Shown here: piece by piece, positions 49,100 to 54,231 of the stretch | Layout: each line of letters starts with the position of its first letter | How positions within the stretch are numbered: position 1 is the stretch's first letter | Source: Olsenella porci | GTDB lineage: Bacteria > Actinomycetota > Coriobacteriia > Coriobacteriales > Atopobiaceae | Length of the DNA stretch: 64,000 nucleotides | Reading direction: 5' to 3' | Assembly: GCF_009695875.1 (NCBI RefSeq) | Contig: NZ_VUNC01000003.1 | Span: 124,001-188,000, forward strand | Notes under the pieces: model-generated | The model's input: only the letters and a program-made list of their open reading frames with translations | What the model was told of the DNA's origin: nothing | Databases searched by the model: none | Made by a program: the position numbers and the translations under genes

Positions 49100-49316
49100 A
49101 CCGCTGCCCGACCTCGGGCGAGGGTATGCCTGGCTGCCGGCGGGAGGGGTCCCGACCGGCGCAGCTCGCCCCTCTCCCGCCGAGCCGCGCCATCGTCCCG
49201 CCCACGACCTCGGAAACAGAAGCGTAACGTCCGTATGTCAGCTTTAGTATGATGGGTCGTGCTGCATTGAAGGATTGTCGGCCGCGCGCTGCGCCCTCGA
49301 CAGGAGGAGGTCATTT

Positions 49317-50654
49317 GTGAGCGATAGAAACGTGGACTTCGTCCTCAGGACAGTCGAGAAGCGTGGGGTTCGCTTCGTCAGGCTGTGGTTCACCGACGTC
49401 CTGGGCAACCTCAAGTCGTTCGCGATCTCGTCAGAGGACCTCGAGGAGGCGTTTGAGGAGGGCATCGGCTTCGACGGCTCGTCCGTGGAGGGCTTTGTAC
49501 CCCAGCAGGAGTCGGACATGCTGGCATTCCCCGATCCCACCACCTTCCAGATCCTGCCCTGGCGCCCCGAGACCAAGGGCGTCGCCCGCGTGTTCTGCGA
49601 CATCAAGACTCCGTCGCGCGAGCCCTTCGAAGGCGACCCGCGCTCGTGCCTCGACCGCCTGGTGCGCGAGGTCGACGCAAAGGGCTACGTCATGAACGTG
49701 GGACCCAAGATCGAGTACTTCTACTTCGAGAACGACCACGACCCCATCCCGGTTGACAACGCCGGCTACTTTGACCTCACCTCCACGGACGTCTCGACCG
49801 ACCTCAGGCGCGAGACCACCCTCATGCTCGAGAAGATGTCCATCCCCGTGGCGTACTCGTACCATACCAGCGCGCCGTCGCAGAACGCCGTCGAGCTTCG
49901 CTACACCGAGGCCCGCAGCTGCGCGGACAACATCATGACCGCCCGTCTGGTGATCAGGCAGGAGGCCTTTGCCAACAACATGTTCGCCTCGTTCATGCCC
50001 AAGCCGCTCAACCACTGCGCGGGCTCCGGCATGTTCCTGTACCAGTCGCTGTTTGACCACGAGGGCAACAATCTGTTCTGGGCCCCCAAGACCCAGAACG
50101 ACGCGCACCTCTCCGAGCTCGCCCAGCACTACGTGGCGGGGCTGCTCAAGTATGCGCCCGAGTTCATGCTGGTCACCAACCCCACGGTCAACTCGTACAA
50201 GCGCCTCATCTCCAACGACGTGGTGCCCGTGTACGCCACCTGGGGCCGCAAGAACCGCACCGCCCTGGTGCGCATCCCCACGCACAAGCCGGGCAAGCAC
50301 CAGTCCACGCGCGTTGAGCTGCGCTGTCCCGACCCAACCGCCAACCCGTACCTCGCCATCGCCGTGTGCCTGGCGGCGGGCATTCGTGGCATCGAGGAGG
50401 AGCTGCCCCTGCCCAAGGAGTCGCCCGAGGACATCGACCGCATGAGCGAAGCGGAGCTGGAGCGCGCGGGCTTCAAGCGGCTTCCGCGCAACCTCAGCGA
50501 CGCGATCAAGGAGTTTGGCTCCAGCGAGCTCATGCGCGAGACGCTGGGAGACCACATCTGCGACTACCTCATCGAGCAGAAGTGGGCGGAGTGGGACGAG
50601 TACGCCGCCACCGTTACGGAGTGGGAGCGCAGGCACTACTACGCGGGCTACTAG
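49317..50654 (+). CDS. Glutamine synthetase-like protein, probable pseudoenzyme
   Basis: 445 aa from the GTG at 49317 (AGGAGGAGG upstream). By overall sequence it is a type I glutamine synthetase: GIGFDGSSVEGFVPQQESDM, FQILPWRPETKGVARVFCD, NAGYFDLTSTDVSTDLRRET, TNPTVNSYKRL and PDPTANPYLAIAVCLAAG. But nearly every metal or catalytic residue differs: K131 where E129 (E. coli numbering) is expected (GPKIEYFYF), T184 and A191 for E212 and E220 (YHTSAPSQNAVEL), F240 for H269 (GSGMFLYQSL), V302 for E327 (SNDVVPVY). It has no adenylylation tyrosine loop. Making glutamine is therefore unlikely; a sensing or new role is possible. A glutamine-type ABC transporter and a GlnR-like regulator follow. Confidence 0.85.
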   Translation: MSDRNVDFVLRTVEKRGVRFVRLWFTDVLGNLKSFAISSEDLEEAFEEGIGFDGSSVEGFVPQQESDMLAFPDPTTFQILPWRPETKGVARVFCDIKTPSREPFEGDPRSCLDRLVREVDAKGYVMNVGPKIEYFYFENDHDPIPVDNAGYFDLTSTDVSTDLRRETTLMLEKMSIPVAYSYHTSAPSQNAVELRYTEARSCADNIMTARLVIRQEAFANNMFASFMPKPLNHCAGSGMFLYQSLFDHEGNNLFWAPKTQNDAHLSELAQHYVAGLLKYAPEFMLVTNPTVNSYKRLISNDVVPVYATWGRKNRTALVRIPTHKPGKHQSTRVELRCPDPTANPYLAIAVCLAAGIRGIEEELPLPKESPEDIDRMSEAELERAGFKRLPRNLSDAIKEFGSSELMRETLGDHICDYLIEQKWAEWDEYAATVTEWERRHYYAGY

Positions 50655-50695
50655 GGGAGAGGGGCAAGAGCCTCTGTGCCAAGGAGTCTTGATGG

Positions 50696-50732
50696 CGGGG
50701 TCACTGGCAGTTGTGCCGGTGGCCCCGTTTTG
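50696..50732 (+). terminator. Intrinsic terminator after the GS-like gene
   Basis: CGGGGTCAC.GGCA / TGCC.GTGGCCCCG stem followed by TTTTGTT. The remaining gap to 51046 holds no gene; TTGAAC near 50990 and TATAGT near 51016 may form the promoter of the next operon. Confidence 0.85.
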
Positions 50733-51046: not shown

Positions 51047-52499
51047 ATGCAAGAACTTGCATCAAGGAAGCCTCACCCAGGAGGACTGGTCGCAGGGGCA
51101 CTCGCGCTTGCCCTCGCGCTCGTGCTCGGTGGCTGCGGTTCCGCAACCTCAAGCTCCTCGACAGGACTCGACTCTTCCGGCATCACGACCGCTGCGGATG
51201 CGGGCGAGGTCGTGGTCAAGAGCGCCACGGCCCGTCCCAACGAGGATGGTGGCAGCAGCGTCTTTGGCGGTCAGGAGACACGTCTGACCTGGGAGGGCAC
51301 CGTCAACGTTGACTCGGGCATCACCGAGGTGACGCTCGCGCTTCCCGACGACGCGACCTTTGACGGCTCCACCACCCGCGTGACGGTGCTCGATGGCCTC
51401 AAGCGCGTCAACATCGATTCCACGACCTCCACGAGCGGCAACACCATCACCATCAAGTTCGCCGAGGCCATTCCCTCCGGGTCGCTCCTGCGCCTCGAGG
51501 TCACCAACATGAAGTTCCCCACCAAGGGTGGTTCGTACTCCGTCACCGGCACCTATGTGACCGGCACGGGCGAGAAGGCGGAGCTGGACGCATCGCCCAA
51601 GATCAAGATTACTGAGCTCACCACCACGCAGGCGATCGTCAACTGGCTTGATGGCCAAGCCTGGGTCTCCGCATGGAACTCCGTACCCTTCCTCAACATG
51701 TTCTTTAAGCCGCAGCTGCTCGTGACCTCGTTCCCGTCGCTGTTCTCCGGCTGGATCCTGTGCCTCATCATCATCCTGGTTGCGTTCCCGTTTGGCATCC
51801 TGCTTGGTCTGGTCTTCGCGTTCATGCGCATATCTAAGCACCGCTGGGTGCGTGCAATCGCGGCCATCTACGTCAACCTGCTTCGCGGCACGCCGCTGTT
51901 CCTGCAGATCTACATCGCGTTCTTCGGCCTGCCCATGGTCGGCATCAACATGGACAACAACATCCTCGGCATTATCGTGGTGGCCATCAACAGCTCCGCG
52001 TACCAGGCCGAGATCTATCGCGCCGGCATCCAGTCGATTCCCAAGGGCCAGTACGAGGCCGCAACCTCTCTCGGCATGACCTATCGTCAGACCATGACGA
52101 GCATCATCCTCCCGCAGACCGTCCGCCGCGTGCTGCCCACCGTCACGAGCGACTTCATCACGTCCTACAAGGACACCTCGCTCCTCTCGTCCGTGGGTGT
52201 CATGGAACTCATGATGTTCTCCAAGAACCTGACCACGGTCTCGGGCAACATCACGCCGTACATCGCGGCCGCCATCTACTACCTCATCATCACGCTGCCG
52301 CTGATCAAGGTCGTGGGCATCATCGAGAAGCGTCTCTCGGCAGACGAGAACGGCGAGGGCCCGCGTCCCAAGGACGACGACATGGAGACCGAGGACGAGT
52401 TCGAGGCTCCCGCCGCCGACGAGAAGGCCAAGCCCTCCGCGTTCCAGGCGCTTACCGCCCCGTTCCGTGCCCACACCCTTTCCGACGGAGGTGTCGAGG

Positions 52500-52510
<11 letters not shown>
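51047..52510 (+). CDS. Polar amino-acid ABC permease fused to a lipoprotein-like domain
   Basis: 487 aa. It begins with a lipoprotein-type signal ([17 protein letters not shown], Cys30), then a Ser/Thr-rich linker and a beta-rich domain (about 60-195, [20 protein letters not shown]). From about residue 215 it is a standard HisM/GlnP permease: [40 protein letters not shown] and the EAA loop [20 protein letters not shown]. The last 50 residues are acidic. No substrate-binding gene is adjacent. The outside domain may replace or dock one; its fold is unknown to me. AGGAGG precedes the ATG. It overlaps the ATPase gene by 11 nt. Glutamine or glutamate is the likely substrate from context. Confidence 0.85.
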
Positions 52511-53369
<859 letters not shown>

Positions 53370-53556: not shown

Positions 53557-54231
53557 ATGCACCACAAGAATATCTTGCTCATATCCAATGGCTCACGTTA
53601 CCTCGAACGGATGCGCGAGCTCAAGCACGCGCTTGACGTATCCATCCTCCCCACCACGTCGGACACGTTCTCCCAGGCGGTCTCGTCGGGGCATGACTTC
53701 GACCTCGTGATCCTGGACATGCAGGGGCTAGGCAAGGAGACGCTTGCGAGCGTGGACTCCTACGTCTCTGACAATGGCTTCATCCCCACCCTCGTCATCC
53801 AGGAGGAGAGTGCACTCAGCAGCCTCCACCTCCCTGCGCAGGGGCGCAACGACTTCATCCTCTCGAGCGCGGGCGAGGCAGAGTTCGAGGTCCGCTGCGC
53901 GTTGCTGCTGTGGCCGGGGGAAGAGAGCGCCCCGTCGGACATCGTGACCGTGGACAATATGACCATCAACCTGGCCACGTACCAGGTCTACATCGACGAG
54001 CAGCCGGTCGACCTCACCCTCATGGAGTACTCGCTCCTCTCGTTCCTTGCCACGCATCCCTCTCGCGCCTACTCCCGTGAGACCCTGCTGCACCGCGTGT
54101 GGGGCTTCGAGTACTGCGGCGGCACCCGCACCGTCGACGTCCACATCCGTCGAGTCCGCTCAAAGGTGGGACCGCAGATCGCCTCGCACATCGTCACGGT
54201 CCGCGGCGTGGGGTACCTGTTCAAGCTGTAG
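53557..54231 (+). CDS. GlnR-like orphan OmpR-family regulator
   Basis: 224 aa. The receiver half is atypical: it starts NILLISNGSRYLERM without the paired acidic residues of a normal receiver, and TLVIQEES replaces the usual Thr region, although an Asp remains in VILDMQG. The C-terminal winged helix is very close to actinobacterial GlnR: PVDLTLMEYSLLSFLATHPS, LLHRVWGFEYCGGTRTVDVH and VTVRGVGYLFKL. GlnR is a phosphorylation-independent master regulator of nitrogen genes. No histidine kinase is adjacent. With the GS-like gene and a glutamine-type transporter just upstream, nitrogen control is likely. No ribosome site is strong; GGGGGAG lies 8 nt upstream. Confidence 0.8.
   Translation: MHHKNILLISNGSRYLERMRELKHALDVSILPTTSDTFSQAVSSGHDFDLVILDMQGLGKETLASVDSYVSDNGFIPTLVIQEESALSSLHLPAQGRNDFILSSAGEAEFEVRCALLLWPGEESAPSDIVTVDNMTINLATYQVYIDEQPVDLTLMEYSLLSFLATHPSRAYSRETLLHRVWGFEYCGGTRTVDVHIRRVRSKVGPQIASHIVTVRGVGYLFKL

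Follow-up and report, generated by a model that had tools for sequence, protein, structure and literature searches.

The window analyzed is a single stretch of DNA of 64,000 nt. A homologue of type I glutamine synthetase (GSI), referred to here as pseudo-GS, is encoded in it upstream of an amino-acid ABC transporter and an OmpR-type GlnR orthologue. The features of the locus are listed below.

49213..49228, + strand: exact GlnR box GAAAC-n6-GTAAC, 89-104 bp before the pseudo-GS start codon (consensus from PMC3087709)
about 49302..49309, + strand: ribosome-binding site of AGGAGG type, AGGAGGAGG region (from sequence)
49317..50654, + strand: predicted GSI pseudoenzyme, 445 aa, GTG start (translation, Pfam, alignment, AlphaFold2 model)
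50694..50729, + strand: terminator-like hairpin of 16 pairs, 3' of the pseudo-GS gene (count compared with shuffles)
51047..52510, + strand: polar/glutamine-type amino-acid ABC transporter permease with an N-terminal lipoprotein-like region
52467..53369, + strand: ABC transporter ATPase, GlnQ-like
53557..54231, + strand: OmpR-type GlnR orthologue with a degenerate receiver domain (PDB matches, Pfam, motif check)

Both GS domains of pseudo-GS were detected at full length by Pfam (PF00120 Gln-synt_C, 340 bits; PF03951 Gln-synt_N, 103 bits), corresponding to the beta-grasp N domain and catalytic C domain of the GSI fold family. The protein scored 403 bits against the NCBIfam GlnA equivalog, below the cut-off of 429. 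The closest solved relative was M. mazei GS, with ∼43% identity and no alignment shift near the sites. An AlphaFold2 model was built from a 41-sequence alignment (pLDDT 87.7, pTM 0.90) and gave a TM of 0.92 to M. mazei GS (8s59). The lowest-confidence inner stretch of the model was residues 293-300, beside the glutamate flap. The initial annotation of a GS homologue with its fold kept was borne out by the two full-length domains and by the model.

Active-site residues were read against M. mazei GS. E129, E212, E220, H269 and E327 of E. coli are replaced in the window by K131, T184, A191, F240 and V302, and pseudo-GS keeps E131 (as E133), E357 (E334), D50 (D53) and every active-site arginine. 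The two Mg2+ sites, E129/E131/E212/E220/H269/E357, read K/E/T/A/F/E. Pseudo-GS belongs to the GSI fold family but lacks four of the six metal ligands that define a GS enzyme. The initial annotation had listed these four ligands and a flap Glu as replaced, and each was found exactly as given. V302 is almost confined to this genome and is not part of the shared trait, since 39/43 family members keep Glu there. Displacement of the ligands to shifted positions was rejected; the alignments have no gaps around any of the sites, and the entire sister clade is in accord. Judged from these residues, pseudo-GS is almost certainly without catalytic activity. The frame is open and preceded by the AGGAGG-type site, as initially described. 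The hairpin also exists, but with 4 terminator-like hairpins found in the region against 3.4 expected from shuffles there is no excess, and the terminator is at chance level.

Orthologues of pseudo-GS were located in 129/140 Atopobiaceae genomes (99/101 of high quality), and a GS orthologue in 359/397 genomes of the order Coriobacteriales. Atopobiaceae (f1) has the named members Olsenella, Parafannyhessea and Atopobium; a second family (f3) was taken, on rank and size, as Coriobacteriaceae/Collinsella. Ligands were read in fetched loci. E212, E220 and H269 were absent from every orthologue examined in these two families and present in all others examined, save one E220Q. Replacements in the two families were S/A/T/G for E212, G/A/S/C/T/V for E220 and F/Y/L for H269, almost without exception, the exception being one L058 copy with R. 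E129 is mostly K/R in Atopobiaceae and often still E in Coriobacteriaceae; E327 is retained in most Atopobiaceae and lost in Coriobacteriaceae. The rest of the order has intact ligands with scattered partial losses (E129K/E327T in L104, E129A/E327G in L109, E220Q in L113). Outgroup orders carry two GSI genes, both ligand-intact, of which copy A, the orthologue, is 54-58% identical and copy B 47-50%.

A quick likelihood tree with SH-aLRT support placed Atopobiaceae and Coriobacteriaceae in one clade (100%) and the order together with copy A in another (99%), with copy B separate. Because the two families form one clade, the three core ligands (E212, E220, H269) would most simply have been lost once, on one branch. 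In Olsenella phocaeensis (L069, G043) the full pseudo-GS gene is immediately preceded by a partial second copy, and a different contig carries one more fragment; no ABC transporter was found in L069. Two other Atopobiaceae genomes (G079, G080) hold an extra GSI-type gene of ∼40% identity, one with an in-frame TAG.

The initial annotation had raised the matter of a second, normal GS in the genome. A type III GS (GSIII) of 713 aa with catalytic motifs intact by eye is present in the same genome, and therefore the cell has another GS. Nearly every member of the order that was tested has GSIII, and no outgroup genome does, a distribution that fits the idea that GSIII freed GSI from its enzymatic task. 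No GSIII match was obtained in G315 (locus L109), where the GlnR-linked GSI is without E129 and E327; this organism is possibly a glutamine auxotroph, or represents another, independent route to a pseudo-GS.

In Streptomyces and mycobacteria, OmpR-type GlnR acts as global regulator of nitrogen metabolism. The product of 53557-54231 gave best PDB matches to 8hig and 8hih, the GlnR proteins of Amycolatopsis and M. tuberculosis. It has a winged helix, known GlnR as its nearest relative, and a receiver without a phospho-pocket: the acidic pair and the conserved Thr/Lys are absent and no Response_reg domain was detected by Pfam. The window GlnR ends ...YLFKL and has no C-terminal tail.

In the window, pseudo-GS and GlnR lie 2.9 kb apart with the amino-acid ABC transporter (51047-53369) between them, and therefore they do not form one operon. 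The permease is an unusual fusion: its N-terminal region of ∼200 residues begins like a lipoprotein signal and matches DUF2808 weakly. The transporter separates the pair in most Atopobiaceae; the two genes are still adjacent in L046, L060, L061, L063 and L065. GlnR lies directly downstream of the GS orthologue in 26/29 loci of the order outside Atopobiaceae, in 9/10 copy-A loci of other orders in the class and in 10/13 loci from other Actinomycetota classes, with gaps commonly of 0-125 bp and often of 0-30 bp. It adjoins none of the 10 copy-B paralogues. Pairs of GSI and OmpR-type GlnR in other Actinomycetota classes (L173-L183) have near-zero spacing, and no description of pairs of this type was found in the literature searched.

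Among 101 high-quality Atopobiaceae genomes, pseudo-GS and GlnR were both present in 99, both absent in 2 and never found singly (p 2e-4); the two co-absences are weak as independent events, because neighbors can be lost in one deletion or missed through one assembly gap. The one-contig genome G272 (family f4) has no GlnR and only a weaker GS match. A link to the regulator at 53557 had been proposed initially, and at the level of the genome it is strong despite the intervening transporter, through phylum-wide adjacency, joint loss and the GlnR box. No prior description of pseudo-GS, or of GS paired with OmpR-type GlnR, was found in the open-access literature.

GlnR boxes were defined by the Streptomyces GlnR consensus, GTnAC-n6-GAAAC (PMC3087709). 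The site at 49213-49228 is a predicted GlnR-regulon promoter box, and the window contains no other exact a/b box. Of 40 family loci, 17 have an exact box in the 300 bp upstream of pseudo-GS, where 0.14 would be expected; these boxes typically lie at −80 to −120. Relaxed boxes were located within 200 bp at 25/40 loci, with 0.6 expected. The loci are related, and the counts are not independent events. Across 618 kb of loci 24 exact boxes were found, 18 before pseudo-GS and 3 before GlnR. Since the boxes recur before pseudo-GS across the family loci, GlnR very probably controls the pseudo-GS gene.

Boxes of the form GWAAC-n6-GWAAC numbered 5 in the window's own genome and 7 in the reversed control, giving no genome-wide enrichment; another of these boxes precedes a transporter-like gene. 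Control of the backup GSIII by GlnR was unsupported, with boxes before GSIII in 2/14 Atopobiaceae (same genus) and none in the window's genome. In an outgroup order, GSI copy B, with its ligands intact, has an exact box 74 bp upstream at L117 and L119, which suggests that GlnR controls the active GS there.

Taken with the erased metal sites, these results point to pseudo-GS as a nitrogen-status sensor and regulatory partner of OmpR-type GlnR, a reading that we consider probable and in which ligand binding and contact with GlnR are both supposed. Candidate ligands were compared with those of active enzymes. Glutamine feedback in active GSI acts through Arg62 in B. subtilis (PMC9249791) and R66 in M. 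mazei (PMC11957540), and some archaeal GSI read 2-oxoglutarate at an inter-subunit pocket (PMC10799026, PMC11957540). The 2-oxoglutarate residues of M. mazei GS are F24, R26, S38, R87, R172, R173 and S189 (PMC11957540). All seven are present in the window protein, and each in 39-43 of 43 family members. Retention across the pseudo-GS clade was 94% (p 0.001 against random columns, 0.015 residue-matched). Copy A retains 100% of these residues. In copy B the figure is 59%, with His in place of R26 throughout and Lys in place of R173 in most copies. When only the columns that active relatives conserve are considered, the background retention is 79%, and 7/7 is not significant alone; retention by itself is therefore weak, and it is the contrast with copy B together with the erased metal sites that makes it informative.

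The feedback arginine R62/R66 is lost in pseudo-GS (P/S/T/A; Pro in the window) and also in some other members of the order. Because this arginine is lost and the 2-oxoglutarate site kept, 2-oxoglutarate appears, from the residues retained, more likely than glutamine as the ligand. PII usually serves as the 2-oxoglutarate sensor. It was found neither in the window's genome nor in 13/26 other Atopobiaceae tested (14/27 in all), where pseudo-GS and GlnR remain.

In a rather unlikely alternative, which nevertheless has residues in its favor, GlnR would still be the partner, as in a Bacillota-like system, but the former active site of pseudo-GS would sense glutamine or glutamate, or else a nucleotide. 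The glutamate-pocket arginines are also retained in pseudo-GS: R321, R339, R344 and R359 (glutamate-pocket/phosphate), with E131 (or D) and G265, are kept in nearly all Atopobiaceae, as are the adenine-site residues. Bacillota GS works by active-site glutamine sensing with an unrelated GlnR (PMC9249791). Against this, mutation of the glutamine-locking arginine, which pseudo-GS lacks, abolishes feedback in M. mazei GS (PMC11957540), and neither the window protein nor the Coriobacteriaceae-like family has kept E327, the glutamine-amide contact. The proposal of a glutamine or ATP sensor in the initial annotation is only partly supported, with the pocket arginines in its favor and the loss of the feedback arginine and the survival of the 2-oxoglutarate site against it.

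A GS-family ligase with different chemistry, such as a gamma-glutamyl ligase with another metal geometry, had also been suggested. Substrate and nucleotide pocket residues, metal ligands apart, are retained, and GS-like enzymes acting on other substrates are known in Actinomycetota (GlnA2-4). This option is improbable because both Mg sites are broken; 3-4 of 6 ligands have become non-ligating and variable residues, a pattern of lost constraint rather than of a newly conserved site, and what the gene accompanies is a regulator rather than a catabolic pathway.

There is a slim chance that pseudo-GS is a structural or moonlighting protein that senses nothing (a filament, store or scaffold; compare lens lengsin), its link to GlnR reflecting inherited gene order and autoregulation. 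The conserved fold and the separation of the pair by the transporter in most Atopobiaceae would fit such a role. Even where the pair is separated, however, a GlnR box persists in the promoter, and the genes continue to be present or absent together.

Pairwise dN/dS was determined, with medians of 0.29 in Atopobiaceae and 0.20 in Coriobacteriaceae against 0.15-0.21 in active relatives; by this measure pseudo-GS is constrained, slightly relaxed relative to the active enzymes. These values and the presence of the gene in nearly all family genomes uphold the initial view that it is kept by selection. A decaying pseudogene, for which the slight rise in dN/dS and the partial second copy in Olsenella phocaeensis (L069) might speak, was rejected on the open full-length frame conserved in almost all family genomes, the single ancient origin and the purifying selection.

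The sensor reading, with pseudo-GS as partner of GlnR, may be set out as follows. The ancestral state would be a ligand-intact GSI encoded as a pair with GlnR, an arrangement still seen in Eggerthellaceae-like families, in other orders of the class and in other Actinomycetota classes. In the order, the synthesis of glutamine would have passed to GSIII. In the ancestor of Atopobiaceae and Coriobacteriaceae, GSI could then have lost its Mg2+ sites while keeping its fold and its inter-subunit 2-oxoglutarate pocket. The putative pseudo-GS oligomer would shift conformation with nitrogen status, most likely through 2-oxoglutarate, which is high when nitrogen is scarce. In one state it would bind GlnR and switch its DNA binding, the contact and the direction of control both being presumed, and GlnR would in turn control the pseudo-GS promoter. 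Any such contact must differ from that in Bacillota, because GlnR has no C-terminal docking tail. The joint claim, that pseudo-GS senses for GlnR and does so through 2-oxoglutarate, is put forward tentatively.

A pseudo-GS kept with GlnR throughout a family amounts to a natural separation-of-function experiment, and points to GS as a sensor. The pair also offers a simple test system for sensing, with no activity expected and PII often absent. If the reading is true, it describes a bacterial GS pseudoenzyme of clear ancestry and a second, independent invention of GS-to-regulator signaling beside that of Bacillota. More speculatively, GS might serve as a pure 2-oxoglutarate receptor for GlnR that replaces PII in gut Coriobacteriales, with the GlnR-paired GSI as the nitrogen sensor ancestral to this family of regulators in Actinomycetota; this we regard as possible but doubtful.

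Four known systems were compared. Lengsin, a vertebrate protein (PDB 2j9i), has a GSI-type fold without GS activity. Pseudo-GS gave only a weak sequence match to it (E 3.5e-5), and lengsin differs in being an animal lens protein of independent origin, unlinked to nitrogen control. The 2-oxoglutarate-activated GSI of methanogens (M. mazei, M. thermolithotrophicus) are alike in giving the best structural match (TM 0.92) and in the seven 2-oxoglutarate residues (PMC11957540, PMC10799026). They differ in being active, with intact metal ligands and no OmpR-type GlnR partner.

Actinobacterial GlnR, an orphan response regulator of the OmpR family, is alike in providing the best PDB matches, in its degenerate receiver and in its GTnAC/GAAAC boxes (PMC10704036). 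Its signal input was still given as unknown in a 2023 review, and Streptomyces glnR has no co-localized sensory gene (PMC10704036). The window-type GlnR, in contrast, pairs with a GS or pseudo-GS.

Bacillota GlnR (MerR type) is unrelated to OmpR-type GlnR. The Bacillota GS-GlnR/TnrA system is alike in that a GSI is encoded with a nitrogen regulator named GlnR, and there the regulator reads the state of GS (PMC9249791). The Bacillota enzyme (GSI-alpha) is active, uses Arg62 for feedback and receives the C-tail of GlnR in its active site, whereas pseudo-GS looks dead, Arg62 is lost (Pro) and the GlnR tail is absent. The pseudo-GS-GlnR pair resembles the Bacillota GS-GlnR circuit in outline and is not a member of it, differing in both the tail-docking and the feedback features.
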